Source of the DNA: Coprinopsis marcescibilis
Lineage: Eukaryota > Basidiomycota > Agaricomycetes > Agaricales > Psathyrellaceae
Length of the DNA stretch: 64,000 nt
Reading direction: 5' to 3'
Assembly (NCBI GenBank): GCA_004369085.1
Contig: ML210221.1
Span: 62,001 to 126,000, forward strand
In this document: piece by piece, positions 19,961-50,525 of the stretch
How positions within the stretch are numbered: position 1 is the first letter of the stretch
How the letters are laid out: each line of letters starts with the position of its first letter
Position numbers and translations under genes: made by a program
Notes under the pieces: generated by a model
Told to the model about the DNA's origin: nothing
The model's input: the letters and a program-made list of their open reading frames with translations, nothing else
Database searches by the model: none

Positions 19961-22900
19961 TTAAATTTCCGTCGAGCAAACACCCGCAAGTCTCTCCAAC
20001 AGCTGGTGACATTCCTGCAACTCCCGGCTGTACGATGCGTCCTCAGGCTCCAATGACAATAGCCGCCGGTATATGATGATCGCGCTCTTGAGAGTGACGG
20101 TAGCTTCATTTCCGCGGCCGAGGCCAACAAGTGATTCGGCGTAGGTTTTGTGCAGGATACTAGAGGTGGAGTCAGATATCTTGTAGGCCTCCCCTTCGAT
20201 ACCTTGGTGGCAAATTTCTAGACCCTCCAAAACAGGCGGGAGGGCATCCTCGTAACGCCCGCAATTGTTCAAGGAGTACGCCATGGTGTCCAGCGATGTT
20301 GCCAGGTTATTTAAAAATGTTTTTGGGTCCTCCAGGGCCAGTCGGCGATATATATTGACCGACTCTTCTGCTGGCTTAAGAGCTTCGGGTTCTCGACCGG
20401 GAATGTGAGCAAGGTACCATGCATGGCTATTTAATGCAGATGCCAAAAGAGGTTCATAAGTGGCACGATTGCGGACTGCCAGCCTACGGCGGACATCCAC
20501 GCATTCCTTTACAACCGGGACAGCTTCGCTGTAGCGGCCACAGCTGTTAAGTCGTAGGGCCAGCTTATGGAGCGACTCCGCCAGACCTGCGTCAAAGCTC
20601 TGTGGGTCCTCGCATGCCAAACGACGTCGAATCTTGACAGCCTCTTGAACAGGCTCGATGGATTCTGTCAACGTGGTGGATGACTTGGAGAGGTAGAAGG
20701 CATAGTCCTGGAGGGAGCTGGCTAGAGACACGCTGTATGTTGCTGGATCTGTTTCTGCCAGTTTACGGTGGGTGTCAACGGATTCCTTCATAGTCAGGGC
20801 AGCATCGCTGTGACGGCCACATCTGCCTAGACACCAGGCCAGGTTATGTATCGACTGGACCAGATGTGCGTCAAAGCCCTGTGGGTCCTCGCGTGCCAAC
20901 CGACGTCGAATCTCCACAGCTTCTTGAGCAGGCTCGACCGATTCCGCCAGCGTGGTGGGTGACCTGGAAAGATATATGGCATAGTTGTGGAGGGAGTCGG
21001 CGAGAGATGCTTCGTATGTCGCTGGATCGCTTTCTGCCAACCTGCGGCGGATGTCCACAGATTCCTTTACAATCAGAACAGCGTTACTGTTGCAGTTGCA
21101 ATTGGCAAGGCCAGCGGACAGGCTGTAGAGCGAATCCGCCAGACCTGCGTCAAATCTCTGTGGGTCCTCGCGTGCCAATCGGCGTCGAATCTCCACAGCC
21201 TCTTGACCAGGCTCGATGGATTCCTCCAACGTGGTGGGTGACTTGGAAAGGCAGAAGGCGTAGGCATGGAGGGATTCTGCGAGAGAAACTTCGTATTTTG
21301 CTGGATTCTCTTCTGACAACCTGCGGCGGATGTCCACAGATTCCTTTACAACCACGACTGCGCTGCTGTGGCGGTTGCAGTTGACTAGGCAAGCAGCCAG
21401 GTTGTGGAGCGAATCCGCCAGATCGTCAAAGCTCTGTGGGTCCTCGCGTACCAACCGGCGTCGGATCTCCACAGCCTCTTGACCAGGCTCGACCGATTCC
21501 GCCAGCCTGGTGGGTGACCTGGAAAGATATATGGCATAGTTGTGGAGGGAGTCGGCGAGAGATGCTTCGTATGTCGCTGGATCTCTCTCTGCCAGGCTGC
21601 GGTAGATATCCACGCATTCCTTTGCGAGTTTGACAGCTTCGCTGTAGCGGCTGCAATCGGCCAGGTCATTGGACAGGTTGTGGAGTGAATCCGCCAAATC
21701 TGCGTTATTGCTTTGTGGGTCCTCGTTTGCCAAACGGCGGCGAATCTCCATAGCCTCCTGACCATGCGCGACCGATTCCGCCAACGTGGTGGGTGACTTG
21801 GAAAGATAAATGGCATGGGCATGGAGGGAACTGGACAACGCTGATTCATATGCTGTGGGATCTGTTTCTGCGAGCTTGCGACGAATTTCCAGCGATTCCT
21901 TTGAGGGTGGGACTGCATCGCTGTCGCGGCCGCACTGGGAGAGATGCCAAGCAAGCCGGTGAAGTGAGTGTGCAAGATCAGGACTGCAGTAAGAGGCGTG
22001 CTTCTCTACAAGCCGACCCTGAATCATCACGGCTTCCTCCCCTAACGCTACCGCTTCCGTTGCTTTCCCAACCTCAACAAGACAGACCCCATACTCCAGG
22101 AGAACACTGGCCAGAGGACCCTCAAACCTGTCTGGATTACTGCTTGCCAACCAGCGGCGGAGTTTGGTGCTTTCCTGAATGTAGGTAATTGCTTCACTGT
22201 GACGTTGGCGACGCGTCAGATTTGACCCTGCCCGGTGTAGTGTCGTAGCCAGGTGAACACGAAAAATGTCAGGCTGAACAGCTTCCAGCTCACGAAAGGT
22301 ATCGATGGCCTTCAGGTCCACTTCGTGGGATTCCGCGGAGCGGCGTAGTTTGTGCAGGATTCGGCTTTGTAATAACAGGGCCGACCCTAATACTGGATTC
22401 GCCATATTATGACTGGTTGAGGTCAATCGACGGGTAATGGCGAGTGCTTCTTCTGCAACCACGAGTCCTTCCTTTGAACGAAGGCGGGCGGAGTGCAACC
22501 ATGAAAGTCTGAGTAGGCCCGCAGCGTACTCGAGCTCCATAGGCGGCTCTGCTCGGCTCGGAGCACATTGTCGATAAAGTCGGATCGCCTCCTCCATCAG
22601 GACCAAGGACTTGTCTTGTGGGTATAAACAGGCCGCCATTGCGAAGTACGTTTTCATCGTCTCCCTTATGCCTTCCAAGGTAAAGACCGCACTGCGGAGT
22701 GTCTATTAAGAGGATTTGGTCAACAAGTCAAATGCCGCGTAGGGATTGAAGACTTACCAACGCTTTCTTTCTCAAGGAGACTATATCAACGATTGCGCCC
22801 ATGGAAGCGCTGGCCTCGAGTAGGCAGCAAGGGTTTTCAACGACGGTTTCATACAAAAGCGCGCCGTGGGGTTCATTCGCGATTTCCTTTGGCACTGAAA

Positions 22901-24521
22901 GTTCATGTTCGCCCACGTGGCGACATGCGTACCACAGGTGTTCAAGGGCTACCTCCATTGAGAGTCTTGGGATCCTCGGTGCTGCCTCTGTAAAATCCCA
23001 GACCCAGTCACCTTCAGTGAACCCGAGGGTCGGGACATGTGTAGGGGCGAGCTCTTTCTTGATGGTCAGCAGTGAGAGTCGCGAGAGGAACAAGTGGTGA
23101 ACGTCGAGATCTATATAACAGGGTGGCGGGGCGTTTCGCGTCAGGAACTCCTGAACAGAAAGATGGAGAAGCCGAACGGGCCTTCGAGGAGTGTCTCGGG
23201 AGTAATCCTGCAGCAAAGGTCGGATGAAAGTGCAGATCCTGTGGATGTCTTCCTCTGCGATCCCATCCGGCGCGTAGAGGGCAGCCAAGCCGCGGACAGA
23301 CAGCGGCTCCATCAGGGTGACGAGGGCTCCCATCACAACATTGTACTTCTCCACAAATCTACGATCCGTCCACTGCAGCTTGGATAAGATGTGCGCATAA
23401 AGTGACTCCAGCTTCTTCGTGGACGTTTCTGACTCCATCCAATGGCTGCTTGCCCCTTTCACGATGTCGGCGAGCTCTGCGGGAGGATTGTAAGACCCAT
23501 CGATATGGTTGAGGACCGTTTCGGCCCACAGGAACAACCCCTCGCACTTGGAAACGAATTCATCAAGCAACTCTGGGGATATCCTTGCGCAGTAGTTTGT
23601 TTTCGATAATCGCAGTTGGGTGTATGTTCGGACATCTTGAGAGCTCGAGCCCCCCGCCAGCAAACGGGAGAACATATGGATATGGGGCTGGCCCTCGAGG
23701 TGCTGCATTACTTGTGGAACGGGGCGAGTAGTAAGGACGAATTTGAAGGTGACGGGGAGGCGGGGGACGTAGTCTCGAAGAAATCCCAGCAACACTTTAT
23801 CGGATTGTTCATCGAGAGAATCAATGCCCACAACGAATGTGCGATCGGTGGAGAGTAAGGGAATGATGGGAATGACCAGGCCTTCAAATTGTACAATGGC
23901 CGACGAGGAGGCCAACGCAGGCTTTTCAACGATTAATCGTCCGATACGTTGCTCGATCTGCGGGTTGAGGCTGCACAGGCCACGGATGAACACGGCCATG
24001 AAGTCCTCAGATGTCAACTGTTGGCCCATTTGGCTGAAGAAGAACGATGCCACAAGGAGACCGCTGTCGTCCATCCTTTTGCAAATCGTATGTGCCAATG
24101 CAGACTTTCCACTCCCAGCCGGCCCCCCAACCACCAGCACCCGCTCGGCTTGTTCGGATGGGACATTGTTGTCGACGGATCTAGTTGCCCACGACGATAT
24201 CTCCTCAAGGTGCGCGATCCGCGTCCCTTCTGAACAAACGCGCATTATATCCCAGTGGCAACGTTTTGGGTCTGGTAAGCGTCTTAACGCTTCTTGGAGT
24301 TTGATGCCAGCTGCAGAGTCTGCACCTAAATCGATCCCTTCAGCCCAAGTAGTCAAATCGATCGAACACAGCTCACTGTGATAATGTATCTCCTGTCTTT
24401 CTACAGCCTGCGCATTGATAACAACGTCGTTCAGCATGACATGGGACGATTTAGAGAAGATCTCTATGCCTAGTTTATCTAAATGATTAGCTACAAGGGA
24501 GCTATTCCATTCTGAAATCAC
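19961..24521 (-). CDS. NACHT-TPR NLR-like protein (5' end not fully resolved)
   Basis: Putative cytosolic receptor/NTPase of the agaricomycete NLR class. Exon 22758-24521 carries pre-NACHT sequence (LQEALRRLPD, HLEEISSWA), P-loop GGPAGSGKSAL, Walker B VVGIDSLDEQS, sensor VLTTRPVPQ and a winged-helix-like end (LLHLSVQEFLTR). A 55-nt intron (22703-22757) joins in phase (KKAL|TLRS) to exon 19961-22702. That exon holds 914 codons, almost entirely tetratricopeptide repeats of the kinesin-light-chain type (recurring AVEIRRRLA, DSLHNLA, ESVDIRRRLAE), ending at LLERLAGVCSTEI. Upstream, an exon around 24540-24620 (YYPRLIDYEVEQRSLEVF) probably belongs to it, but the joining intron would be only about 30 nt, so the start is uncertain. 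The combined length of about 1,500 residues is normal for this class. Confidence 0.88.
20600..21900. repeat. Internal DNA repeat encoding paired TPRs
   Basis: Tandem units of about 282 bp (two TPRs, 94 codons). The stretch at about 20932-21030 is nearly identical to 21492-21592, two units (about 560 bp) away. Other units are more diverged. This indicates recent unequal exchange or gene conversion within the TPR array. Confidence 0.85.
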
Positions 24522-24759
24522 TATCGCTTACCCGCTTTTGCTGAGCCTTGGCCGCGCAGACCACCTTTCAAAGACCTCCAGAGACCTCTGCTCAACTTCG
24601 TAGTCGATGAGCCGGGGGTAGTATCTGGGTACAACAATCAGTGATTTTCGTCCACAATTTCTTGGAGGCCCATACCGGCGTTCTTGGTATCTGCAGTGTG
24701 GGCGCTCAATACTCCTCACAAAGATGAGTCAAAACACCAACGAAACACGTACCTCCTAT

Positions 24760-27800: not shown

Positions 27801-27818
27801 TCATTGAACCTTCAAGCT

Positions 27819-29600
27819 TCAAGTACCATAATGCCAACATTAAGCGCCTGTCTGACTTTGTTATTTTGCGGCGAATTAATTGACTATATAGCGATTTAAT
27901 CGGACAATGTTCAGGCTTACAGAGATATGGAAGTCTCTTGTCGTTCTCTCCTGGTCGCGTCCGGTCGAGATAAGGTCTTTGCGGTCCCCGAAACAACTAT
28001 CCAGCCGCCGAGCCGCCGCCCGCTTATTAGACTCACCAAGAACGTTTAACTCGCCAATGCATTTTGGCCTGGATTTCGTGCCCATTATGAACTGAAACGA
28101 AAACAAGTGAGGTGCATGAAGCGCCCAAGAATAATACATGCTGAACTAAAATACAACAGAGTCGAAGAGCAAACAGCGGAGGAGATGCAACAACAGCAAC
28201 GGAAATAGCACACGCAGCAGACATTGTGACTACCAAAAAGGTTATAAAATTAACACACGAGATCCCCGCAATGACCCCTCAGAAGTTCCTGAGCAGCCTC
28301 TTCCACAACGGCGGCCTCACGCCCGTTCCATCATCCTTGACATAAACCAGCTCTTCCTCCACATTATCCAAATCCCTCCTCCTGCCCGCATCCAAATCGA
28401 CCTCATCCAGTTTCTGCCACTTTGTCTTGTTCATGAACTTAAACACGAACATGATGATAGGGAAAAGCGGAAGAAGGATATACGCATCCACGAAGGCTCC
28501 AGCATCGAAGGGTGCAAAGGTTGTCCATCCTTGGATAAGCGACAAAAACACATTGGCACCAAGACCAAAGTAGGCGTTGTAGGGGTAGAAGAAGGATTGG
28601 AATGGGAGTTGCTCTGGTGTGCGGCCTTGCAACGCCCATGCCTTGCGGAATCGGATGTGGGTGTACGAAATGGCGCCCCAAACTAAAAACGTCGACACGC
28701 CGCTGAGGTTGACGATGTAGCCATATGCCACGGATGCACCGGTCGAGATGTTCATCAACGCCAGAGCTCCGAAGAGGTTGGTAAAGATGATAGCGTTGAT
28801 TGGGACACCACGCTTGTCGGTCTTGCCTAGGAATCGCGGGGCCTTGCCATCCTGTGCCATGAAGAGGATGGTGCGCGAGCCGATGTAGATGGAGCTGTTA
28901 ATGGCGGAGAGACAGGTGATGAAGATAAAGGCGTTGATGAGGTGGACGCCGCCATACCAGCCTGCGCTTTGGATGGCGATAGACATGGGTGACTTGAGAG
29001 CGCGTGCTGCTTCCTTGAATTGCGGAGAGTTGGCGGGGCAGGTGAGGCCGAAGAAGAATGCGCTTCCCATGTAGATGAAGATGATTCGCCAGAAGACTTG
29101 ACGGATGGCGAGGGGGACTGCGACGGAGGGATTCTTGGTTTCGGTGGCGGCGACGGCAATACTCTCTACACCGGCGTAGAAGGTGCTACAGAAAACAAAG
29201 ACAGAGGCAACACCCCTAAATCCGTTTGTGAACGCGCCAGGGTCGCGCCAGTAGAGAAAACCGAGTGGTTCGGTTTGGCCCTTCAGACCTCCAGCAGCGT
29301 AGATCAAACTGAAAAAGAAGAACGCTACCAGCCCACCAAGCTTGACGAGGGCGAGCCAGAACTCGGCCTCTCCGAACGCTTCAACGCCCAGAAGCTGGAA
29401 CCCGAGGAAAAAGAACCAAAAGAGGAGGAAGTACCCCCAGATTGGCACTTTGTCGCTCCAGAAGGAAAAGATCGACGTGACGGCATTGTATTCATTGGCG
29501 AGGACAGCAGCCCAAATGATGAAGTAGTTCCAACCAACCGCAACACCAAATGCCTGGTCCACAAACCGGTCAGAGAGATGGGTAAACGCGCCTCCGGACG
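27819..29600. repeat. Segmental duplication, copy 2 (partner at 15212-16278)
   Basis: Intact copy of the block including permease 3' flank and coding region. See copy 1 for the matching limits. Copy 2 keeps the 0.7 kb that copy 1 has lost. Confidence 0.9.
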
Positions 29601-29898
29601 GATAGAGGGTTGTCATCTCGCCGAGGGATTGCATGATGCTGAAGGCGAGGATACCAATGACGCCGAATCCAATGATGAGGGCTGCTGGTCCACCATTGAC
29701 AAGTGCTCCTCCGGAGCCAACGAGCAGGCCAGGGCCGATGATTCCAGCCAAAGCCAACATGCTCAGATGGCGGGTCTTAAGGGCCCGTTTCACACCACTC
29801 TCCGGGTCAATGACATCGCGGTTTTCGGTGTCGACATTGGCGACCTTGGAGACAGATTCGGCCGAGGCAGAAGGTGCCTTCTTGTCGTAGTCTGACAT
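28279..29898 (-). CDS. Amino-acid permease (APC superfamily, fungal YAT/AAT type), intronless
   Basis: Plasma-membrane amino-acid/proton symporter. A single open frame of 539 codons from ATG 29898, normal length for the family. The N-terminal cytosolic segment (about 45 residues) leads into RHLSMLALAGIIGPGLLVGSG, the conserved TM1 region. Then come PSGGAFTHLSDRFVD and GWNYFIIWAAVLANEYNA, both highly conserved in yeast-type permeases, and later SRTILFMAQDGKAPRFL. About twelve hydrophobic segments can be counted. The C-terminus is charged (EEELVYVKDDGTG). Substrate specificity cannot be read from sequence. Lack of introns is unusual beside its intron-rich neighbours. A broken copy lies at 15.7-16.3 kb. 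Confidence 0.95.
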   Translation of the reverse strand: MSDYDKKAPSASAESVSKVANVDTENRDVIDPESGVKRALKTRHLSMLALAGIIGPGLLVGSGGALVNGGPAALIIGFGVIGILAFSIMQSLGEMTTLYPSGGAFTHLSDRFVDQAFGVAVGWNYFIIWAAVLANEYNAVTSIFSFWSDKVPIWGYFLLFWFFFLGFQLLGVEAFGEAEFWLALVKLGGLVAFFFFSLIYAAGGLKGQTEPLGFLYWRDPGAFTNGFRGVASVFVFCSTFYAGVESIAVAATETKNPSVAVPLAIRQVFWRIIFIYMGSAFFFGLTCPANSPQFKEAARALKSPMSIAIQSAGWYGGVHLINAFIFITCLSAINSSIYIGSRTILFMAQDGKAPRFLGKTDKRGVPINAIIFTNLFGALALMNISTGASVAYGYIVNLSGVSTFLVWGAISYTHIRFRKAWALQGRTPEQLPFQSFFYPYNAYFGLGANVFLSLIQGWTTFAPFDAGAFVDAYILLPLFPIIMFVFKFMNKTKWQKLDEVDLDAGRRRDLDNVEEELVYVKDDGTGVRPPLWKRLLRNF

Positions 29899-31560
29899 TC
29901 TCGATAAGCCTTGCTACTCTGGGTACCGAGTTGAAGTTGAGAAGGGCAGGTGAAACGCGAAAGGTTGGGCCGGCGTCGAGAGGCTTGCTAGACACGAACC
30001 AAGGTAGAACCAAGCGATGAGTTGGGCTGAGACGGAGTGTCGGGGATGATATACAGCTCCAGAGGCTGAATTTAGGCTCAGGAACAGTTTTCTTTGTCCT
30101 CCATCGCGATATTCTGTTTGGGAGAATATGACGCAGAAAAAACCAGGATTGCGCCAGCGCAGGACGTAATAAGGCGTGACAGGAAGGTGATGCCCCTGAA
30201 TGTCGATGTGCCTCGAATGGTCCCATCTCACCAATTTTTGTGGTCGATGTCCGAGTTCCGACGAGGTTGCGAGCCTATATCGAGGTCCATTGGGCAGTCA
30301 TGGTTGTAGTAGTGGTTGAGGTCAAAGGTTGTGGATTGATTGATGACGGCGCCCTCCATCGATCATCAAGTGGCGCCGCTCTTTTGCCCTGAGCCAAGTT
30401 ACAACACATACAAACCGGACCAAAACCGGACTAGGCTTGCAGCTCTCATTAATTGCTCAGGCTCATCACAAAAAACGCAATTTCCTGTATGAAATATCAG
30501 AACGGAAAATTCAATCGTCTCGGAAAGCGTAAAACAGCTCCGTTAAATCACAGTGACAGATGAACTTACAATTGCAACTTGCTCGAGTCGCGAGGATTTC
30601 AAGAGCGTATTGTTGGAGGGTTCTCGGCTCCTGACTCCTGAGGCCCTTGCTTTGCTCACCGATGTGGGGACGTTGAAGCCAGGTGAGCCCATTTCAAGTG
30701 GCCGTTGGTTAGCTCCGTTTTTCAATGAAAATTTCCAAGTGGCGGGGCGTCGCTCAAATCGACGACGTGCTGCTACAACCTCAATAGCATCTCACTCCAC
30801 AACCCACACAGACTCATTAAACGCCTTTAATGCAAAGAACGCAGCGTATGTTCTCCTTCTCATGCCCCGTAGCGCGTTTTTTATCCCCCTCCTGAATAAG
30901 AAAGCCACCTCGATTGCCAGGACTACGCCCTGCCTCGCCCTGGTACTGCCTGGGGTACGAACGCTCGGTGTCGCGCAGGCCGATGATCACTCACTCAAAT
31001 TTCAAAGCTGGTGCCAGTGCCGAATTGTGTGCACCTCACACCGTTCATCGGATTCCTCTTGTCGCTTCTTTTTCCAACTGATGTCCTTCCGCGGCCCGCC
31101 ACTACAACCATGTAAGTATGTTACCCGTCATCGAACAAAGATCAGCATACGTACACCCGAATTTTCAAGATGTCATGACTCTACCCGCCCAATCCTGACT
31201 GCGCTACCGCATCATATCGTCCAGGTTGTGCCCCGCTACTAATCGCGATCGCCCTCGCGGTTTCGAAACTTGCGCTATGGGCTAGGAACGTTTGCCTCTA
31301 TGACCTACTGCCATTTTGTGTCATGTTTTGGGATACCCATGACAGTGCAAAAGGGCAGCAAGGGTAGAATCTGCCCTTGCTGAAGAAGGCGAAGCTAAAA
31401 ATTTATGGCTGGCAGCGTGGGGCGAAGCAGGAGGTATAGGTCCTTCAAGTTCCGGACAGAGGGTCAAGCAACAATGCACGGCTGGTGGGGCGTGGGCTGA
31501 GCGCAGGCCCGGGCCTTGTGGCAGGTCACGCTCGCCCACGTATGTATCGCTGGTTGACTC
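29899..31560. other. Gene-free stretch upstream of the permease
   Basis: Contains the permease promoter region. A 229-codon plus-strand frame (30553-31242) has no recognisable domain, low-complexity Ser/Arg content and no splice support, so I do not call it a gene. Confidence 0.4.
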
Positions 31561-32000
31561 CTGCCACCACCATTCCGGGGTGGTGTTCCATCGCCGAAGT
31601 TACTCAAGTTACCGATACTCTGGCAGCTTGGATGGGTGTCATCAAGAAGGAATGGTGTGGCTGAGCCAATCCATACTTGCTCAGGGTGGCGGGAGCGCGA
31701 GGTACTGCAGTGCGGCACTCATACAATCTCTAATACGGGCTCTATTAGAACCTCTGATATTGTTAGAACCTATAATAGGGGTCCTACGGCCCGCAGTTCC
31801 TATCGCCTGCAGGTGTCCTCGGGTTTTGAGCACGGGCGAACACAGGATTATTACGCCTGGCAACCTGGGGGAGCCAATTAATCGGTCAGACTGAGCTTGG
31901 ATGGGTGTTATCAAGAAGGAACGGTGTGGCTGAGCCAATACATACTTGCTCAGGGTGGCGGGGAGCGTGAGTGTACTGCAGTGCGGCACTCATAGAATCT

Positions 32001-32019
32001 CTAATAGGGGCCCTATTAG
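32001..32019. repeat. Perfect 9-bp inverted repeat (palindrome)
   Basis: CTAATAGGG and CCCTATTAG are separated by one base. The second arm runs into the minisatellite, and a related AATAGGGGCCCTA core recurs at its far end (about 32143-32155). In the other copy of the block (about 31740) the palindrome is imperfect. Confidence 0.9.
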
Positions 32020-32147
32020 AAGCTCTGATACTCTGATACTATTAGAACCTCTGGTACTATTAGAACCTCTGATACTATTAGAACCTCTGATACTATTAGA
32101 ACCTCTGATATGATTAGAACCTCTGATATTATTAGAACCTATAATAG
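32014..32147. repeat. 18-bp minisatellite
   Basis: About six units of ATTAGAACCTCTGATACT, with one 10-bp partial duplication at the left end and 1-2 base variants in outer units. The corresponding place in the first copy of the block (31744-31775) has only one to two units, so the array has expanded or contracted since duplication. Confidence 0.95.
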
Positions 32148-32167
32148 GGGCCCTACGGCCCGCAGTT

Positions 32168-32786: not shown

Positions 32787-35700
32787 ATGCCAGCCCCGCA
32801 CTCTTTCCTCCCTACGGTCGTTGGCCCAAGCTCCGTAATGGATGGGAATGTCGTACCCTCACTTTTTACGGCTGCTAGTGGGCAAGCCATCAAAGATTCT
32901 CATTTCATGGCCATCGGAGGCGACCACATAGTCCTGAATGTATCGATAGAAACCCCTGCTCGGCCTCACATCCACCCTTCCCAGCACCTTACAGCTTCGC
33001 CTCACGAGGATGACAAGGAACCAGCGCGAGGCGAGCTCCAGGACACTCAGATTGCAGAACAAGCTCCCCTCGACAGGCACACACCCGCGCCTTCCATCGA
33101 GGGTACAATGTTCAGCAGCACAAGCAACATTCGAGTGGTAAGAATCAGCACTTGCTCATTGTGCGAGATCTCACGATGATGCCACTCAGGAATGCCTCCA
33201 GGGCCTTGACTTCTCCAAGCTGACTCGCAATTCCTCGTCTAGACTTCACTCGGAGGTGTATCGAAACTTCATGTACTCAGCAGGACAAGGATATCCTTGC
33301 TTCAATCCTCGATATGGAGGCCAAATTAACATCGGAGACGTGGGCACAATCGACAGCGATGGGTTTCGGGCCATCTTCAATCTCAAGCACGATGAATTCG
33401 AAAGCGATCCCCGACCATTCCCACAGCCAGAGGCTTTATTCGACATAATAAAGGAAGAGGAAATACTATCCGAAGGAGATACATTTACACCAGAAGTGGA
33501 GGACACTATTGTTAACTATACTCCTGATCATTCGTCAGTTTCACTGCACATTGCACGCTCTAGCCTCGACTACTTGATTAACATACCTTTCGCCCCAGAT
33601 CTATCGATAACTTTGAATTTCACTGTCGGTCTCCGTCTGGCGCGGTACTAGCCATCACCTCGTCTGCCAACCTAGAATCGATCGGCGACAACAATTGCAT
33701 GCGCGACTATTTGTGCGAGAATGCGGAAGCAATATTCAAGCACGCGAAAAGCATACGGCGGTTGGATCATAGGGAATCACTATACATCGTCACAGGGTGC
33801 ATAAAGACAGACAGTTGGGCTCTTGCTTCCCATACCTCGCCCATGAGGGAGCCCAACAACGTCCTGGTCCTCAAGAACCGCATGGTTGACTCCAGTGGTT
33901 CGGTTTACTCCTGGGTTCGTAAAGGAAACGCACAAACGCGAGCGGGCACCACTAGTAACACCAACGCGGGACTGAGGGCAAAAGAACACTCCCTTTTCCT
34001 TCGCGGCTTCCTCCTGACCCCAAATAGTGGCGATTCGTCTGGTAGCCCCCCCGCAGCCAGCGCAGGTGATACTGGGCCGTCCTCCAGTGGGTCGAACTCC
34101 GACAAGGACGCCCCCAGTACAGACCGTTCTGGAAAAGGGTCAGGCATCGGCAAACCAGGGGAGGCATCATCAGCACGCCATGGCGGCCCGTCAGCGGGCC
34201 CAACATCGTCAGCATCGTTCTCCGATTCGTTATCCAGTGGGCCTGGCATCACTAAGTCAACGAGACCGGTTGTACAAAAATTCCCATTCCAGCAAGCAAG
34301 CGTACGTCCCGTCTTTTCATCATATGTACCGCTTCATCCACTGACTGGAAAATACACCAGATTGGAACACCATCCGAGTTCGTGAACGCCTATCTACTAC
34401 AAACTCAGGTAGGCTGCACATCTTGTTCGGCAAAAGCATCACGATAACCCAGTTTGCATCTCAGGATAGAGCCCAGTTTGCTATTACCCATGATGATGAC
34501 TGGAGAGGTACGCTCAAAGGCAGAACATGGGATGGTGCGTAAACATCAGAACCAGACGATGGAGTCCGCACTTATATCCTGCACTACAGAGGGTGAGATT
34601 GTTGGTCTCTTGGACAGGCTGAGTCTCTCCAGGCGCGTTAAGATTAAAAACGGTACAGGATGGCTCCGTGATGAATCTTTTGTGCAAACTCGTCTCTGAC
34701 GGCAACATTAGGAGTCGCGTTTACGAAAGAAACCGACGAGCAAGACTTGGTGGTTCCAGACCCACAAGACGTGGCCGACACCTGGACGAGCAGCCTTGGT
34801 CACAACTCCGAGTCTGATGCTCGAGCTGTTAGCCATCCAAGTAACTCATACTCACATTTTTGCGTGAAAACCGCCGTTCAAAGCGTTACAAACGAGGTAG
34901 ACGTCCAGGAGAGCCATCCATCCTCTCCCGCAGGCACTCTAGCCTTGGCACAAGGCGCTAAGCTCAAGTGCAGTGTGACGGTATTGCCAATCCTACTGTT
35001 ATATGTTGTCCAAATACTTATGTAAATACTTTCTGCATCGTTTCTTCAAGTCCTGTAACGTCTGTAAAACCGATCCGGCGGACTGTAGACGTGTGGAGAA
35101 TGGGGAAAGCAGCAGCCATGCCAGCAGCTCGAGCAGGGTATCCGAGCCAATAAAAACGCGCCCAATGGTATGTGATTCTATCGGTCGGTTCACCCATTGC
35201 GTTGAAATACTGACAAGTGTGCAGCATCTCAAAGCTTGTGTATCTTGCAGACGTAGAAAAATCAAATGCGATGGTCAAGGTGCGTATCACCGTTACGCCA
35301 ATTTGTTAAATTCCATCATCTCTGACTCTTTTCTCAGCGCCATGCAGGAATTGGTAAGTCTATAGCGCCTGTGATATAGTTCATTTGCTTCATATTGATT
35401 CGATTGCAGCCAGAACGCGTCAATAAGTCTGTCGTGCACATATGAGAAAGGTCCGCCATACGGATCATCTCGGAGGAGCAGAAGCCAGGGTCCAACTGCT
35501 AACCGCAGAAGCAAGGTAAATGTCATTCGAATTTAATGTTTTGACTGAATCAATTCTATTCAGGAATGCGATCATTGCTGCTCCGCGAAAGTTAAGTGTG
35601 ATTGTGCAGGTCTGTCGTCGCTTCCTTCTCTCACCCGAGCTCTTCTGACTCCAGTTCTACTCGGTGGTTACAGATCATTGCGACACGTGGTAAGACTCGT

Positions 35701-38675
35701 CAAAACGCTAATTATGTATTTGTTCTTATCATTCACGACAGTCAGCAACAAGCCACATTTTGTACGTGGGACGAGCCATATCCCCGACTAAGACCTCGTT
35801 CTCCAGTCCCTTCTCCATCGTCAAGCGTAATACCAATTTCAGACGATGGAGTAGCGGGGGATCAGGGTCGTCAGATGTTCCAGCAAGATCAGAATTTCAG
35901 CATACGATCTGGCACGTTCATTGAGGTCCAAGGGAATGTCGATACAACGTACATGGGCAGTATTAGCCTGCCCCCCGCTCATCCAAATGCTGCGCGCCAA
36001 CCGGAATCGGCTTCGAATAGCGGTAGGTACATTCCTTGTTGGATTCAGTGTCTGGGTTCTCACAATCGTACGCAGGTGCTGTCAGTGAGGCACTTGATGT
36101 CTCTAGCTCCTGGACAGATATCTTCCAGAGAGCCACAATACTTGGGGTCAATCTTGAGATCCCCGCACGAGGTGAAGAGACTGTTGCGCTGTTAATGTGC
36201 ACGTATTCTAACGATGATCCCATAGGTGTCACAGAGGTTGCTAGAGCCCTAAGTGGCTTGAGTTACCGGAGTTTCCTGGCCTACTACCTTCGCAAGAGGG
36301 TAGCGAAGACAGGACGGTGGGTTCTCGCAGAGCCGAAGTTTCGTAAATGGAAGAAGGGACCTTCCCGGATCCTATGGGGGACTGGTATGCGTGCGTACCT
36401 GTGACTCCCTGTGATTTGAAAATAACATGGCTAACTCACCGCATTCGCATAGCTGGTTCCGGGAAAACATTCTTAGCGTAGGTCTTCTTTCTAGAGGCAA
36501 TTAATTCGTGATGTGTCTAAACTTGGGTGCAGGTCAACAATAATCGAACATCTCATGACGCTTGCGCAGGGAAATAAGCGAATATGTGTTGCATTTGCTT
36601 TCTCTCGCTACATCGACCCTGGAACTGTCGAAGACATTCTCGCGGGTCTTCTCCGCCAGATTCTTGAAGACTATCCACAGACCATCATATACATCCAGCC
36701 CATGTACGATTACCATTCGCTGCGAAAGACTCGACCATCGAAGCAAGAGTTAATCGGCGTCCTCGAGGCTATATTTACCTCAAATCTCTTTGATGAGAAG
36801 TTTTGCTCCTTGGACGGCTTGGACGAGGCCAAACTAATCACCCAATTCGAGCTTCTCGACCACCTTTCCCAGCTGCCGATTAACCTCCTCATTACCTCGC
36901 GCCCGCTACATCTCCTAGAAGGCAAACTTCCGATGGCAGACCATTTCAGCATCACTATTCAGAATTCGGACATCGAGAGTCTCATCGAAGAGAGGGTTCT
37001 CCATAGGCCAGCTCTCCAATACCTACTTGCACAAGACGAAATCCGGAAAATGGTTGTGGAAACCATGATGAAAAAAGCTTCGGGCATGTAAGTGTGTTAA
37101 AATTCTCGCGCTTCTGTTTCCAACGGCCTCAATAGGTTTCTCTATGCAACTCTTCAGCTGGACATGCTCGTAGAGTGTGCTAATACGCAAGAACTGCGTC
37201 GAGCACTAGAGACGTCCCCCATGGGCCTACACGCCATGTACCAGATGACCATGTTGCGGGTGGAGGGGGGAGAGTATGTTGCCACGGCCAAACGCGTTCT
37301 CACCTGGCTGGTGCATGTACTCAACTCTATGTCAACGAACGACCTACAATACGCCATTGCGGTAGATCCCGAGACTTTCGAGTTCAACCCTGATCGTCTC
37401 ATTGATGAATCCACTCTTCTCTCCGTATGCTGCGGCCTGGTCACTGTTGAGCCTCAAAGTAAACTGGTTAGGCTCGCTCGTGAGTGTTGTTTGTATTCTT
37501 TGAAATTTGATCCAAGCTAACCACTTTATGTAGACTATACAGCCAAGGACTTTCTCGAGCCCTACCTGAAAAGAGAAGACCCCGATCCCCATACAATGAT
37601 CGCCTCCACGTGCATTGCACGTCTGATACAATCCAATCTACACGTGGTCAACGGGGAACGCGACTTGCATGCCGCCTTCAATGAAAATCCCCCTTTTCTG
37701 CGTTACTCGTTCAATCGATGGGCACAACATTCACATCTCTCTGTTTCACTGCCAGCTCCAACCCGTGACTTCGTACTTCGGTGCTCCAGTTTTCCGATAC
37801 ATGACGAGGATGAAGACATTATTTGCCTAGGGTCCTCGGTACACGTAGCCGCCGCCTTCAACCTTCACACAATATTTGAAGAATGGTCCGATCCCCGCTT
37901 CCACGCTCCTGATGGCCTTCAATTACAACTCCCGCCCCCCTCCCCCATAGACTTTGGTATCAATGCCCTGTCGCCGGCCGGGATGTCAGCTCTAGCACTC
38001 GCATCATTTGCCGGCCACGTTGAGACAGTTCGGGTCCTACTCAGTGTTGAGGGGATCGATGTGGGCTGTGTCGACGTCCGTGGGTGGACACCTCTAATGC
38101 GTGCAGCTTGCGTAGGAGATGAGGAAATTGTGCGGATGCTGGTTGAAGTTGGCGACACGAACCAGGCAGGTACTAGAAATGAATCAGGTTGTACGGCTCT
38201 GATGTTGGCCTCGGCTGAGGGCCATGTCGAAGTCGCTAGAGCCCTTCTCCTGGTCCGGAGTGCTAGCGTCGAGAACCTACGCCGACGAGACTCTACCGAA
38301 GAGGTAAGCTTCATTAGTGAATGTGGGGAGGCGCTGGGTGAAGCAGCATGGTATGGACACCTGGACGTCGTGAAAATGCTCCTTTCCGTGGAAGGCATCG
38401 ACGTCAACTATACAAAACCAGAGACAGAAAGGAGGACGGCCTTGATCGTTGCGTCAGGGTGGGGCCACAAAACCATTGTCGAAATTCTCCTCCAACAAGA
38501 AAAGATTGACATCAACTATGCGTCTCCAGGTGGGATAACGGCCTTGGCCTGCGCGTTGAAGTGTGCCAATCACGATATTGCAGAGTTGCTCCGTGCAAAT
38601 GGTGCACAAGAGCCTTCTGCAGATATTCTCAGGGACTATATACACAACGATTCGATTCCCTGGTATGATGTGTAA
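32787..38675 (+). CDS. Zn2Cys6-NACHT-ankyrin fusion protein (NLR with integrated zinc-cluster modules)
   Basis: Exons: 32787-33137, 33202-33533, 33599-34301, 34361-34408, 34465-34507, 34590-34652, 34712-34980, 35051-35167, 35225-35279, 35338-35353, 35410-35515, 35564-35609, 35674-35689, 35742-36022, 36076-36384, 36453-36477, 36533-37087, 37136-37479 and 37534-38675. All phases agree, giving 1,606 aa (1,588 if 36172-36225 is also spliced out). In order: N-terminal motif HFMAIGGDHIVLNV; unknown module with GDVGTIDSDGFRAIFNL, LYIVTGCIKTDSW and THDDDW; Ser/Gly linker; degenerate half cluster CNVCKTDPADC (about 605-615); zinc cluster C-x2-C-x6-C-x5-C-x2-C-x8-C (647-675); zinc cluster C-x2-C-x6-C-x6-C-x2-C-x6-C (703-730); NLR motif NFSIRSGTFIEVQGNV (774-789); NACHT with GSGKT (about 921) and Walker B SLDGLDE; six ankyrin repeats (about 1375-1600). 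The alternative is two genes, the NLR starting at ATG 35875. Function is unknown. The domains suggest a receptor carrying a transcription-factor-like bait. Confidence 0.82.
35225..35449 (+). other. Zinc-cluster module 1 of the fusion gene
   Basis: Split over three exons: C1-C3 with the basic RRRKIK stretch in 35225-35279, C4-C5 in the 16-nt exon 35338-35353, C6 at the start of 35410-35515. The pattern is that of fungal Zn(II)2Cys6 DNA-binding domains. Confidence 0.85.
35564..35770 (+). other. Zinc-cluster module 2 of the fusion gene
   Basis: C1-C3 in 35564-35609, C4-C5 in the 16-nt exon 35674-35689, C6 in the exon starting 35742. Spacing is canonical C-x2-C-x6-C-x6-C-x2-C-x6-C. Intron positions and phases within the module equal those in module 1. 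Confidence 0.87.
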
Positions 38676-39099
38676 CATCAAAGCAATATTCTACACTTTC
38701 GTCAATCTTCGCTCTGCTTGTGTTCAGTGTATCGCTGACAATAACAGCTAAAACAATACGCAAATCGGTATCTCACCAATGACTGGCACCTTCGTATGAT
38801 GGATACTTGGCAGAGAACACGTCGGGAAAGGTTCGAAAGTTGTTGGAACAGCGAGAGTGTCAGTGGAGCAGTGGGCTACTGATACTCTAGAGGCAGCCGC
38901 GGACTCGGAGATGTGCCACTGCACCAAACTCGACGTAGTAATACTAACATTGTTGACCATCACCAAGCGCCCAATGATGGTCTTGGAGCTGTGAAGGAGG
39001 CTATGCCGCTGCCTGGTCACGAGAGCTTCTGGATGACCTTTCACTCAAAATGCCGTGAAGTAACGGCGTTCTTGGTCTCCCAACATCTCCCGATTTCAA
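38676..39099. other. Spacer between tandem paralogues
   Basis: About 420 bp. No gene recognised. It should include the 3' end of the fusion gene and the promoter of its shorter paralogue. Confidence 0.4.
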
Positions 39100-42000
39100 A
39101 TGGAAGGAAATGTCGCGCCTTCCCTTTTCACGGCTGCTAGTGGCCAAGCCATCAGGGATTCTCATTTCCTGGCCATTGGACGCGATCATATTGTCCTAAA
39201 TGTCTCAATCGAAACCCCTGCTCGGCCTCACCACTTGACAGCTTCGCCTCCTGAGGATGGCAGGTCGCCGGAAACCATCCAACCGCGAGGCACACACATG
39301 GGCCTAACATCGCCAGCGGTGATGGAACCAGCGGTACAGGAGTTTTGGGGCGCTCAGATTGCAGACCAAGCTGCCCTCGACCGTATGCCTGCCGTCGAGG
39401 GTACAGTGCTCAGCTGTGGAACCAGTATGCTTGTGGTAAGAATCAGCACTTGCTCGTTGGGCGAGATCTGACGAAGATACCAGGAACCACTCCAGAGCCT
39501 TGACTTCTCCAAGCTGACTCGGGATTCATCGGCTAGGCTTCACTCGGAGGTCTATCGAAACTTCATGTATTCAGCAGGACAAGGATATCCTTGCTTCAAC
39601 CCTCGATTTGGATGTCCGATTAACATTGGAGACGTGGGCACAATTGACGGCGATGGGTTTCGAGCTATTTTCAACCTCAAGCACGATGGAAGCGAACCCC
39701 AACCATTCCCATCGACACAGGCTCTATTCGACATAATGAGAGAGGATGAAATACTATCGGAAGGAGATACCTTCACACCAGAAGTGGAGGACACCATTGT
39801 CAACTACACTTCTGATCATTCGTTAGTAAAACTGCACATTGCACGTTCTGACCTCCACTAATACACCTTGTATTCAGCTTTATCAATAACTTTGAATTTC
39901 ACTGTCGGTCAGCGTCTGGTGCTATATTGGCCATCACCTCGTCTGCCGACCTAGAATCGATTTGTGACAACAATTGCATGCGTGACTACTTATGCGAGAA
40001 TGCGGAGGCAATTTTCAAGCACGCGAAGAGCATACGGGGGTTGGATCATGGGGAATCGCTCTACATCGTGACAGGGTGCATAAAGACCGACAGCTGGGCT
40101 CTTGCCTCCCATACCTCGCCCATGAAGGGGCCCAACAATGTCTTGGTCCTCAAGAACCGTAGGTTTGGTTCCAGTAGATCGTTTTACGCCTGGGTTCGTA
40201 AAGGGAACGCACAAACACGATCGGGTACCACCGGTAACAACTTCACCAACGCGGGACCCAGGCGCAAAGAACACTGTCTTTTCCTTCGCGGCTTCCTCCT
40301 GACCCCCACTGGCGAGGACAAAGCTGGTAATTCGGCTAGCGCAGGCAATACTGGCCCGTCTTCAAGAGAGCTGAACTATGATAAGGACGCCCCAAGTGCA
40401 GACCGTTCTGGAAAAGGGTCAGGCATCAGCAAACCAGGGGACGGCTCATCATCTGCGAGCCATGGTAGCCCATCATCGGGTCCGACTTCGTCAGCATCAT
40501 TCTCGTCGTTATCCAGTGGACCTGTTATCACAAAGCCAACGAAACCAACTGTACAACAATTCCCTTCCCAGCAAGCAAGCGTACGTTCCATTGCCCCGTA
40601 ATGTGTCCCCTTCACTCACTGGCTGTATCATACACTAGCTCGACACACCTTCAGAATTCGTGAACGCCTACCTGCTACAGACTCAAGTAGGTTGCCATTT
40701 TGTTCTGCAAAAACATCACAATAACCCATTATTGAATCGCAGGATAGAGCCCAGTTTGCTGTTACCCATGATGATGACTGGAGAGGTACACTAAAAGGCA
40801 GAACATGGGACGGTGCGTAAGGGTCAAAACAAGGCGATAGAATCCGCGCTTATGACCTATATTGCAGAGGGTGAGATTGTTGATCTGTTGAACAGGTTGA
40901 GTCTCTCCAGGCGTGTCCATATCAAGAACGGTACGAGACGGCATAGTGACGGATCTTTTGTGCAAACGCATCTCTGACGGCAGCAATAGGTGTTGCGTTC
41001 ACAAAAGAAACTGACAGTCAAGACTCGGTGGTTCCTGACCCACACGATGTGGCCAATGCCTGGACCGGCAGCCTTGGTCGCAAATCCGAATCCGATGATC
41101 GGACTGTTGACCATGCAAGTAGCTCATACTCGGGAACAGCCTTTCAAAGTTTTCCAAACAATGCGTACAACCAGGAGAGCCATGTATCATCTCCCGCGGA
41201 CACTCTGGCAGCCATGGCACGTGTCGCCAAGCGCAAGCGCAGTGCAACGGTATTGCCAATCTTACTCCTATATATCACACAACCGCTAAGGGAAATACGT
41301 TGTGTCGTTTCCCACAGCCCTGTAGTGTTTGTCAAACCGATCCGGCAGATTGCAGCTGTATAAAAGGAGAAAGCAGCAGCAGCCATGCAAGCGGCTCGAA
41401 CAAGGCCACGATTTCCAAGTCAATAAAGACGCGCTCAATGGTATGCGATTCTACGTTGGTTCACCCATTGCGTTGAATGCTGACAAGCGTACAGCGTCCC
41501 AAATCTTGCGTCCCGTGCCGTGTTAGAAAAATCAGATGCGATGGCCAGTGTGCGTATCATCCAATTTTCAGTCCAACAAAATCTCGCTCATCCTTGTGAC
41601 TCCTTTCTCAGTGCCATGCATAAATTGGTGGGTTTTACAGTATGGAATCCAGCTCACCTGCTTGTCACTGACTCGATTGCAGCGAGAACGCGGCGGCGTA
41701 CAGAAACATATCGTGCACGTATGAGAAGGGTTCAACTATATACCGAAGAAAGGCAATTCTCTTTCCTCCACTGTTTGACTGAACCAATTCTGACCTGTTT
41801 TCTCCAGGCATGCGATCATTGCCGCTCTGGGAAATACAAGTGTGATGGTGCAGGTCTGTCACTACTTCATTCTTTCCCTTAAGCTCTTCTAATCCTAATT
41901 GTATCGTGGCTAAACAGATCCCTGTAACACATGGTAAGAATTCCCAAAATGCTTATTCTAAACGCGCATTCTTATCGTTCAATACAGTCAGCGCCGGGGC

Positions 42001-42168
42001 AAAATTTGCACATGGAGCGAGCCGTATCCCCGACGCAGGCCTCCTTCTCCGGTCCCTGCTCCATTGGCAAACTTCCTTTCGCGTTCAGAAGACCAGGGTG
42101 GTAGTGTTTCAGAAACACCACCACCACGTCCGACCCCTAGCCCCCCACCTTCTTCATTCTTGTACTGA
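39100..42168 (+). CDS. Zinc-cluster protein paralogous to the N-terminal half of the NLR fusion
   Basis: Exons: 39100-39435, 39496-39821, 39878-40580, 40639-40686, 40743-40785, 40868-40930, 40990-41249, 41318-41440, 41495-41549, 41612-41627, 41683-41752, 41808-41853, 41918-41933 and 41988-42168. All are in phase, 761 aa. Many exons match the upstream gene in exact length (703, 48, 43, 63, 55, 16, 46, 16 nt). Same order of parts: HFLAIGRDHIVLNV, GDVGTIDGDGFRAIFNL, YIVTGCIKTDSW, Ser-rich linker, THDDDW, half cluster CSVCQTDPADC, cluster C-x2-C-x6-C-x5-C-x2-C-x10-C, canonical cluster starting ACDHCRSGKYKC. After the last Cys it continues as a Pro-rich tail (PPPRPTPSPPPSS) and stops. No NACHT or ankyrin follows. 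The intron at 41753-41807 has a GC donor. Role unknown; nuclear DNA binding is possible but not shown. Confidence 0.83.
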
Positions 42169-42777: not shown

Positions 42778-44345
42778 ATGAGCGTCCCACAGCTTCCAGA
42801 GCCCTTTTCATTGTACCCTCTCACTCCATTCGACTACTTGTTCGAATCAAGCAACTTTGTGACCGGATGGTTAGTCGAGGGTGATATCGACCGCGCTGAA
42901 TTAGAAGCCGCCCTGCAAAGGTTGACAGAGAAATGGCGGATGTTGGCGGGGAGGATCCAGTTAGCGGTCAACGACAAGGTTTTCTTCGTGCCAATTGTCC
43001 CGGTGGTCAAGCGCTCACGCACTCGTCTTTAGCAAAGGAAACAGTGGTGCATCCGCATCCCGCTTGGCCCACTACCACCCGATTACCGAACCTTCGCCCT
43101 GACCAGTTCCACTTCCCAAGTTCCTCTTTCAACATATGTAAAGGTTCCAATCCCAAGCGTCTCGACATCGCTTCCTCTCTCTTTTTTCATGGACCCATCT
43201 TCACCTCGAGGGTACCATGCATTCGAGGCATCGTCGCACCCGATAACATCGTGGCACCTCACCTACTTTCCAGCATCTTCAAATGGGGGAACATCATACA
43301 CAGCCATAGGGTTCATGCGTTCCCATGGAGTCTTTGACGGAACAGGGGCTTCAAAAGTCACGAAGGCGCTGGTCTCGGAGATGAAGGGAGAGACATGGAT
43401 CCCACCTGCCCTCCCTTCAGAAGGCACGGTTTCGAACCCCATCGCACACGAGTTATCCCAGCACCTTTCCCGCAACCCAAGCTTGGGAGACACGACGGAA
43501 TATAAAGGATATGCGCCTTTGGGCGTTGTCGGGTTATTGAAGACGGTGTTGTGGCACTTGAAAGAAACGTATTGGGCTGGAGCGGATAGACGGATCGTCC
43601 TCCTCCCAAAGGCTGCCTTGACCTACATCGTAGCCGAGGTTAGGAGATCCCTCGTCGACGAGGGCAAAGAGGGACACGGTGTCACGTCAGGAGACGTAAT
43701 AGTTGCGTGGATCTACAAAGTACGTGAGCAATATGAATGGGCTGCGGTTGGTGACTAACCGTGGCCACTCTGCAGACAATCTATTCTTCAGGAACGTCAC
43801 CGACAACTGTGACCCACTGCACCAACCTCGCCTCAATTCGTGGTATTCTAGGAAATGAGAGTTCCGCGTCGGAAATGTTCCCGGGATATGTTCACAACGC
43901 CTTCGTTCCTTTGCCTTATCCCACATTCTCTGTCTCCCAGGTCCAGGAAACGCCTCTCCATGCCCTTGCCGAAGCCTTCGCTTCATATCGCCTCGCCCTT
44001 TCGAAAGATCAGGTAGCTTTAGCCTACGACCTCATCAAAACCCTGCGCCGACAAAATCCATTCACTATCCACCCTGATGCCAACGACGACCTCCTGATAT
44101 CCAACGTGTCCTCATCACGGATCTTGGAAACGGACTGGAGCTTGATAGGCGCGAAAAGGACTTTATGTGGGTATCGTTATCAGGTGTCGGTGGCGAACAT
44201 GTTGTTCACGAATGCGGTGTATATTGCGGGACGGCTGGCTGACGAGAGCGTGGTGCTGGACACATCTTTAAATAGCGCGAGGATGGAGCTATTCTTAAAC
44301 GAGGTTAATAGGGTTACTCTTGCCGCTGGAAAGGGGGAGCAATAG
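42778..44345 (+). CDS. BAHD-type acyltransferase (transferase family), copy 1
   Basis: Likely transfers an acyl group from CoA to a hydroxyl or amine of a small metabolite. Exons 42778-42978, 43033-43719 and 43776-44345 are in phase, 485 aa. The catalytic HxxxD motif is seen in RSHGVFDGTGAS. The N-terminal condensation-like fold is suggested by LYPLTPFDYLF and TEKWRMLAGRI, and a second conserved region is SSRILETDWSLIGAKRTLCG. The plant-type DFGWG motif is not evident, as often in fungal members. It shares both intron positions and long identical stretches with the gene at 48889-50525, so the two are duplicates with an MFS exporter between them. Substrate unknown. Confidence 0.85.
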
Positions 44346-48888: not shown

Positions 48889-50525
48889 ATGTCTGAGCCC
48901 ACAGTTACCCCACTACTTGATGTACCTCATGCGCTCTACCCTCTAACGCACTTCGACTACCTGTTCGAAACAACCACCTTCGTGACAGGCTGGCTGGTCG
49001 AAGGAGACATCGACCGTGCAGCACTCGAGGTCGCGTTACGCGCCGTAACAGAGAAATGGCGCATGCTTTCAGGACGTATCCACTCAATTCAGCCTTCAGA
49101 AAATGTAAGAGTCCTTCACCTCTTGATATAAATATCACTCACCGACCCGTCATCTCGCTCACAGGAAAGAAAGAAATGGTTCATTCGCATACCTCTCGGA
49201 ACCCTCCCGCCCGACTATGAGACTTTCTCCCTCACATCATCCACCTCCGAGGTTCCCCTCTCAACCTACGTATTCACCCCTCTATCCACCGTCTCACCCT
49301 CCCTTCCCTTACCGCTCTTCGTCTCCCCCTCGACGCCGCGCGGCTACAACACTTGGGAGAAAGGCTCGCACCCACTCACATTTTGGCACCTCACCTACTT
49401 CCCCGCCTCCAGCAACAACGGCACAAGCTACACTACAATCGGCTTCGCGCGCTCTCATGGCGTCTTCGACGGAACGGGCGCGTCCCAAGTTACCAAAGCC
49501 CTCGTGGCGGAGCTCAAGGGAGAAGTCTGGACCCCGCCTCCCCTTCCCGTGGAAGGCTTCAACACGAACCTCATCGCAGACGAACTTACAGCGCACCTCG
49601 CGGAGAACCCAGAGCTGCCCTCATTAACCCAGTATAAAGGGTATAAGCTCTTTGGGAACCTACGCGGGTTCGTCAGGTTTGCCTTGTGGCAGCTGAAAGA
49701 AAAGTGGTGGGGTGGGGCGGAGAGACGCATCTTGCTTCTGCCCAAAGACGCGCTGGATTACATTGTGCAGGATGTGCGGCGGGCTTTAGCAGAAGGAGGC
49801 CAGAAGGGCAGTCAGGTATCATCGGGAGACGTCCTAGTCGCGTGGCTCTACAAAGTGCGTCAGGGATACAAGCGTCCCTATTCCACTCGAGCTCGCTCGT
49901 AATTAGCGATGTTGACGTTATTTCACAGACTATCTACGCATCTGGCGTCTCTGGCACAACAAGCACGCACATTACCAACTATGCCTCAATCCGCGGCATC
50001 CTCAGTAACGAACTCAAGGAGACTTCCCCAAAGCGCGCAGCATCAATCAGCACCTACCCACACAACGGCTTCATCCCCTTGCCCTACCCCACCTTCCCCG
50101 CCTCCCACATCCAGTCCACACCCCTGCACACCCTCACACACACCCTCTCGCAGTCCCGCCAGAGCCTCAACAAGTCCCACATCACCTCCGCCTACCACAC
50201 ACTCACAACACACATCCGCGAACAGCCCTATACCGCACACCCGGACGCATACGACGAACTGCTCATCTCCAACGTTTCTTCTTCGCGCATCCTCGAGACC
50301 GACTGGAGCTTGGTCGGCGCCAAGAAGACTCTGTGTGGGTACAGGTACAACATCTCGATCTGGAACTTGCTGGTGACGAATGCGGTATACATCGCGGGAC
50401 GCCTGAAGGATGGGAGTGTGGTGTTGGACCTATCGTTGAATAGCCATCGGATGAAGTTGTTGGTTGACGAGGTGGAGAGGGTGAATAAGATGGCTACTGT
50501 GGGAGACTCTGGAAAGAGCAAGTGA
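48889..50525 (+). CDS. BAHD-type acyltransferase (transferase family), copy 2
   Basis: Exons 48889-49104, 49165-49854 and 49929-50525 are in phase, 500 aa. HxxxD is present in RSHGVFDGTGAS, as in the 42.8 kb paralogue. Other shared stretches are FVTGWLVEGDIDRA, TEKWRML, NVSSSRILETDWSLVGAK and TNAVYIAGRL. Introns fall at the same codons in both genes, so duplication came after intron gain. Copy 2 has a slightly longer N-terminus and C-terminal Lys-rich tail. Both copies have intact frames and catalytic residues, so both may be active, perhaps on different acceptors. Confidence 0.87.

Follow-up and report, generated by a model that had tools for sequence, protein, structure and literature searches.

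The 64,000-nt stretch of the Coprinopsis marcescibilis genome analysed here, called the window below (positions 62,001 to 126,000 of the forward strand of contig ML210221.1; the assembly comprises 36.3 Mb in 448 contigs), carries on its plus strand an open reading frame that joins a gasdermin-like half with zinc clusters to a NOD-like receptor (NLR), and next to it a stand-alone relative of the first half, called copy 2. A preliminary description made from the sequence alone had proposed for the fused locus a 19-exon gene running from the ATG at 32787 to the TAA at 38675. When this join was rebuilt, it gave 1615 amino acids (aa) with a single, terminal stop codon, and all 18 introns were of the GT..AG type and 48–70 nt long. 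The splice sites were adjusted against four public proteins of the species, P0001, P0002, P0063 and P0093, of which P0063 and P0093 belong to the window's contig and P0001 matches contig C105 at 98–99%. The corrected gene that we propose extends from 32838 to 38675 (+) and encodes 1586 aa in 20 exons (exons 1–7: 32838-33137, 33190-33533, 33599-34301, 34361-34408, 34465-34534, 34590-34652 and 34712-34980; exons 8–14: 35051-35167, 35225-35279, 35338-35353, 35410-35515, 35564-35609, 35674-35689 and 35742-36022; exons 15–20: 36076-36171, 36226-36390, 36453-36477, 36533-37087, 37136-37479 and 37534-38675).

The frame joins without a stop from either 32787 or 32838, thus the single open frame described earlier was confirmed, while its exon count and its start had to be revised. 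Translation probably begins at 32838, since the copy 2 protein starts with MEGNV and its counterpart at this position reads MDGNV. The two copies are homologous from 32837 onwards, and upstream of this position no noteworthy similarity appeared, which leaves the 17 extra residues from 32787 unsupported. Exon 2 probably starts at the upstream acceptor, at 33190, as it does in P0063. A 54-nt intron (36172-36225) was recognised inside the former exon 15; the public models P0001 and P0002 remove the corresponding stretch by splicing, and the paralogue model P0095 retains it. A donor lying 6 nt further on restored the P-loop GTGMPGSGKT, as in P0093, and no disabling change occurred across the 1586 codons.

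The encoded protein begins with an NLR-type motif, SLFTAASGQAIKDSHFMAIGGDHIVLNVSIETPA (32859..32960), detected by a motif pattern search, which is followed by the main part of the gasdermin-like pore domain (exons 2–3, 33202..34025), assigned by homology to copy 2 and P0073. A Ser-rich linker separates the latter from a conserved THDDDW segment (exons 4–7, 34361..34731), part of which aligned with gasdermins when the folds were compared. Then come a half-cluster, CNVCKTDPADC (C-x2-C-x6-C, 35051..35086), conserved in copy 2, and two Zn2Cys6 clusters. Cluster 1 (35237..35437) is split over exons 9, 10 (16 nt) and 11, has the spacing C-x2-C-x6-C-x5-C-x2-C-x8-C and matched Pfam Zn_clus with 36.4 bits against a cut-off of 21. 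Cluster 2 (35567..35763), split over exons 12, 13 (16 nt) and 14, has the spacing C-x2-C-x6-C-x5-C-x2-C-x6-C, and it was identified from this spacing alone as it gave no separate Pfam match. Its sixth Cys (codon 35761-35763) and the ATG at 35875, which opens the second NLR-type motif, MFQQDQNFSIRSGTFIEVQGNVDTTY (35875..35952), lie in the same open exon, 35742-36022, as had been noted before; this ATG would be the alternative start if the NLR were a separate gene.

The NLR part contains an NTPase of the NPHP3_N/NACHT type (36309..36902) with the P-loop and FCSLDGLDEA, a winged-helix-like region (37248..37556; GPIID_WHD 24.8 bits, below the cut-off of 27) and ankyrin repeats (37992..38513; Ank_2 111.5 bits, plus further Ank models). 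On the joined protein NPHP3_N scored 84.2 bits against a cut-off of 24.8, and the NACHT model 18.7 bits, under its own cut-off of 26.7, thus NPHP3_N is the better label. The Zn2Cys6 and ankyrin assignments of the preliminary description were therefore borne out by Pfam, while its NACHT label is better replaced by NPHP3_N. With its NTPase and C-terminal superstructure-forming repeats the second half has the make-up of an NLR.

Duplication, chimeric junction and selection on the two halves

Self-comparison of the window showed that the segment 32837-35824 is duplicated at 39099-42070 with 75% identity, that is, the duplicated unit comprises the first half alone. Copy 2 (39100..42168 (+), FA15DRAFT_469069, P0063) has 14 exons encoding 774 aa, with the gasdermin-like part and two Zn2Cys6 clusters, is 67% identical to the fused copy and continues to its own stop at 42168. 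Our copy 2 model was letter-identical to P0063, down to its two 16-nt exons and its single GC-AG intron, which suggests, without proving it, that the public model had transcript support. A search with P0001 found no relative of the fused NLR elsewhere on the contig.

The homology to copy 2 ends at 35824 and that to paralogous NLRs begins at 35844, thus the junction is a chimera, mapped to less than 20 bases (35825..35843). Five of the six NLR loci compared gave an alignment at the junction, starting at 35844 (C349), 35845 (C208), 35846 (C178), 35848 (C390, E 0.11) and 35872 (C105), and a second C390 locus gave none there. The junction corresponds to the end of the second intron of P0001: the approximately eight bases at 35844..35851 are the tail and acceptor AG of the ancestral NLR intron, now read as codons. 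The acceptor is that of P0001, the one of P0002 lying 3 nt further, and the next exon reads VAGTQATQMFQ in P0001 and VAGDQGRQMFQ in the window. A tblastn search of the window with the first exons of P0001 and P0002 (MNLDH... and MNPDH...) found nothing at E ≤ 1. A splice between the exon 13 donor and the ancestral NLR acceptor was also considered and rejected, since by hand reckoning it would throw the NLR out of frame.

No in-frame stop closes the gasdermin half ahead of the NLR, and the ancestral NLR start is missing, which together speak against two ordinary neighbour genes. In a two-gene arrangement, intron retention or alternative polyadenylation would terminate the gasdermin/zinc transcript, and the NLR would be expressed from an internal promoter, for which the ATG at 35875 could act as a new start. 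The NLR motif would then stand first in the protein, as is common in agaric NLRs. The duplicated unit does end ahead of the NLR, the NLR motif does open with its own ATG and the public annotation does separate the NLR, as P0093; however, the annotated start of P0093, at approximately 36196, falls within the stretch spliced out by P0001 and P0002. The annotated 5′-end of P0093 is probably wrong, and that of P0094, which has the same start, may be wrong too. Considering the uninterrupted frame and the lost start exons, we regard two separate genes as rather unlikely.

Selection on the two halves was estimated as the ratio of nonsynonymous to synonymous divergence (Ka/Ks) by the Nei-Gojobori method with our own script. 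Over 726 codons, the gasdermin half compared with copy 2 gave a Ka of 0.151 and a Ks of 0.491 (ratio 0.31), with 0.19 in the pore core, 0.086 in the THDDDW segment, 0.37 and 0.46 in zinc clusters 1 and 2, and 0.57 in the linker, the least constrained piece. In the NLR half, the NTPase region gave 0.30 against both P0001 and P0002, while the ankyrin part gave 0.71 and 0.68, respectively, as expected of a fast-evolving sensor. Thus, both halves have Ka/Ks values well below 1, although the ratio is unable to date the fusion, which may be younger than the constraint. When locus C306 served as outgroup, the fused copy had three and copy 2 had two private changes among 124 comparable sites, so the fused copy is not visibly decaying faster.

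These values bear on the possibility that the locus is a recent chance chimera without function, in which neither half works properly. It is a single locus in one genome, within a large and much duplicated NLR family of which several paralogues are annotated as partial, and all this would fit such an accident. The 1586 intact codons, the constraint on both halves (subject to the dating limit above) and the lack of acceleration in the fused copy argue the other way, and a functionless chimera appears unlikely to us.

The gasdermin-like half, its zinc clusters and the N-terminal motif

The module previously described as unknown resembles the pore domain of gasdermins. Foldseek searches with AlphaFold2 (AF2) models of two family members, copy 2 and P0073, matched the gasdermin pore-domain fold, and the assignment was applied to the fused copy by homology. 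The family was represented by 30 aligned gasdermin-like proteins, 29 of the 30 relatives from the search with the first half plus P0017, P0092 having been dropped (9% match). No NTPase or ankyrin domain was found at E ≤ 0.01 in any of the 30 (417–1328 aa search), and the same search returned no public protein equal to the gasdermin half. In different species the gasdermin-like module is joined to a homeodomain, a caspase, an RNase III or Zn2Cys6 (P0075, P0088, P0090 and P0063); some of these combinations may be gene-model artefacts.

All 12 zinc Cys residues are kept between the fused copy and copy 2, and the latter has two Zn_clus stretches (51.2 bits). Among the 30 aligned relatives Zn_clus matched at E ≤ 0.01 only in copy 2, and in two of the 30 at E ≤ 10. 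The half-cluster pattern, applied without a control on the window, was absent at the eight other family loci of the genome (9.9 kb each). We infer that this lineage gained the clusters ahead of the duplication from which the two copies stem. A six-frame genome search yielded 17 Zn_clus matches, all of them more than 20 kb away from the listed NPHP3_N matches (by eye), but this search is insensitive because it missed the window's own intron-split clusters. Zn_clus (PF00172) was likewise absent from 101 NLR relatives of approximately 462–1470 aa, as read by eye among the matches listed.

The clusters had been interpreted as zinc modules built into an NLR, which would serve as an integrated bait or as a DNA-binding output of the receptor. 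The canonical ligand spacing and the conserved Cys residues are compatible with this, and C2H2 and treble-clef zinc fingers, present in 57 Sordariales NLRs and C-terminal in 52 of these, have been discussed as sensors (PMC12258605). Nevertheless, the clusters arrived within a gasdermin-like gene that also exists alone, and no fungal transcription-factor regulatory domain was found among 15 Pfam families with E up to 1. The one-frame architecture of that interpretation therefore stands, while the insertion of a bait does not, as the clusters came as the tail of the gasdermin-like gene (P0063). Together with the gasdermin-like look of the first module, this makes an executioner role more likely than a decoy or DNA-binding one, although the clusters may act as a bait as well. 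We consider it improbable that the clusters are primarily an integrated bait or a DNA-binding output of the NLR.

According to a survey, the agaricomycete NLR motifs are built on a core of 25 residues, three of them hydrophobic, that closes with a G[DN] pair, and NLR05/08/22/29/44 form a motif meta-family (PMC9815663). For this group, Table 1 of the survey gives zero neighbours and zero effectors, C-termini having been examined; a few MLKL-like C-termini with such patterns are mentioned in two species, and partners carrying the motif elsewhere in the chain are suggested (PMC9815663). The motif of the NLR half, MFQQDQNFSIRSGTFIEVQGNV, resembles the N-termini MFSNATGFGIRESHFTSVQGDM (P0078), MFQNATSFGVHGSQFMSVQGNV (P0080) and LFTAASGQAIRDSHFLAIGRDH (P0063) of gasdermin-like proteins. 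A first motif pattern matched five of 30 family members (0.02 per protein in shuffled sequence) and eight of 73 NLRs (0.10 per protein), and a number of the NLR matches fell in NTPase sequence. A second pattern, our own regular expression suggested by the survey (PMC9815663) and the sequences, with a last residue looser than G[DN], matched 11 of the 30 relatives within the first 200 residues, where 0.09 were expected from shuffles, and gave zero matches in their 17021 residues beyond; the 11 matches are partly fitted, since the pattern was shaped after the family N-termini had been seen. Among NLR proteins it matched five of 73 (0.44 expected), two of them (P0140 and P0148) in NTPase sequence. 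Both window motifs and the paralogues P0001 and P0002 match it as well. Over 62 loci it picked out 12 distinct strings, some plainly not motifs, against two in shuffled DNA.

Thus, part of the gasdermin-like family appears to share an N-terminal motif with these NLRs, which resembles the agaricomycete amyloid-type motifs, and the family is a candidate partner for the motif NLRs. In its widest form, this would mean that an unrecognised agaricomycete gasdermin-like family, with the amyloid-type motif of mushroom NLRs at the N-terminus of its members, supplies the missing effectors of the largest motif group, one of them fused to an NLR and seeding pores with the free copy, which we put forward as a tentative and somewhat doubtful possibility. 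The resemblance bears on the downstream targets of the amyloid-motif NLRs, of which an agaricomycete strain has dozens.

Surroundings of the locus

A gene for a CHAT protease with a tetratricopeptide repeat (TPR) part lies at 51157-54735 (−) of the window (72.9 bits), 9.0 kb beyond copy 2 and 12.5 kb from the fusion. The sequences HFGCHG and LSACETA suggest, by eye, an intact His/Cys pair in its product. According to PMC12881547, a Podospora gasdermin has a TPR-bearing CHAT protease as its activator. No listed CHAT, S8 or C14 match occurred within 10 kb of the other eight family loci of the genome. The CHAT neighbour is weak evidence: the 47 CHAT matches, at approximately 45 loci in the 36.3 Mb, give a chance of approximately 3% for one within 10 kb of a given gene, by our own estimate made after the neighbour had been seen.

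The mushroom is very rich in NLRs (at least 160 NPHP3_N matches genome-wide), and the window itself is NLR-dense, as two further NPHP3_N frames are present (10624-12054 (+) and 22728-24527 (−)), one of them beside a long TPR array (19961-22702 (−)). Two 1-kb segments, 15214-16181 and 27818-28799, are 90% identical; the second extends into the end of a gene for an amino-acid permease (28279-29913 (−)) and the first looks like a detached fragment. By eye, units resembling TATTAGAACCTCTGATAC form a short tandem array at 31700-32160, approximately 0.6 kb upstream of the fused gene. Two related stretches, 42814-44314 and 48937-50482, share 64–72% DNA identity and enclose a frame resembling a major facilitator superfamily transporter (by eye); exon 49132-49902 of the second stretch gave no Pfam match at E ≤ 0.001.

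Proposed mode of action and relation to known systems

We propose that the locus encodes a chimeric, all-in-one, pyroptosis-like receptor of C. marcescibilis with the order NLR-type motif, gasdermin-like domain, two Zn2Cys6 clusters, second NLR-type motif, NTPase and ankyrin repeats. It would have arisen by the joining of one tandem copy of the gasdermin-like/zinc-cluster gene to an NLR without its exons 1 and 2. The ankyrin repeats would sense a non-self or damage cue, upon which the NTPase would oligomerise and bring the gasdermin domains together; the latter, released from the zinc-cluster tail, would open pores, probably with free copy 2 from next door, the fused copy acting as a seed. What was observed is the open frame with its chimeric junction, a gasdermin fold match for two family members, selection on both halves and the resemblance of the motifs, while one transcript over both halves, pore activity, oligomerisation, inhibition by the zinc tail and co-assembly with copy 2 are inferred. 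RCD-1 pores form from two divergent variants (PMC12881547), and by analogy the fused and free copies could co-assemble. According to the same source, gasdermins of fungi and bacteria are held inhibited by a short stretch at their C-terminus (PMC12881547); as the zinc clusters occupy this place, they may be a lock or a trigger.

Several points weigh against this reading. The public annotation has the NLR as a separate protein of 753 aa, and by our own estimate about a quarter of such events would leave the junction open and in frame by chance alone. The fold of the fused copy is carried over from copy 2, which is 67% identical to it, the best Foldseek E-value of the second model was 2.4e-3, and the alignments of the two folded models were largely the same. 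Pfam Gasdermin remained unmatched in the genome (six-frame, exon by exon) and in all 30 family members, the family consensus matched no gasdermin profile, and the PDB sequences gave no support for gasdermin identity. Just one of the 30 members touched the bacterial gasdermin profiles (bGSDM E 0.013; prok_gasdermin E 0.027, 14.3 bits against a cut-off of 100). The same domain order, which the preliminary description had proposed to look for in related genomes, was not found in limited protein searches: no second genome with the fusion appeared among the matches listed for proteins of 0.55–1.75 times the query length. No public fusion protein was found, and an identical one would have ranked first in the full-length search, which says little beyond that because its 7989 listed candidates were mostly ankyrin proteins. 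Titles and abstract starts among the literature matches listed named no gasdermin/zinc-cluster-NLR fusion and no agaricomycete gasdermin family. Weighing all these, we give the all-in-one receptor with the proposed mode of action an even chance.

If the fusion is expressed, it would be an NLR with a built-in gasdermin-type executioner, so that sensor and executioner would be a single protein. In the fungal cases described in PMC10197012 and PMC12881547, the gasdermins are separate from the protease receptors, and a separate protease-bearing receptor controls a separate gasdermin. Known fungal gasdermins are reported to be clearly more abundant in Ascomycota (PMC10197012). If true, our reading would place gasdermin-type cell death in mushrooms.

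The fused protein has no clear sequence match to the fungal RCD-1 and HET-Q1 or to bacterial gasdermins, and compared with all of these it adds a long Ser-rich linker, the N-terminal NLR-type motif and the C-terminal zinc clusters and NLR. Like Zn2Cys6 transcription factors, it has two canonically spaced clusters; unlike in those, the clusters follow a pore-like domain and no regulatory region was found. NWD2/HET-S is an amyloid-signalling pair, in which, as here, the receptor carries a copy of a sequence from the neighbouring effector gene; in our case, however, the fusion takes in an entire effector copy, and members of the effector family carry the shared motif at their N-terminus, not at the C-terminus. 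The effector of HeLo/Goodbye-like NLRs is a helical bundle, whereas the one described here has gasdermin-like beta structure. In these all-in-one fungal NLRs, too, a single chain carries a pore-forming effector ahead of its NTPase (PMC9815663, PMC12881547). In the two-gene clusters of a protease-NLR and a gasdermin, described as "contracted pyroptotic-like pathways", an NLR and a gasdermin are also encoded together, but in the C. marcescibilis locus it is the gasdermin itself, and not the protease, that would sit in the receptor (PMC10197012).
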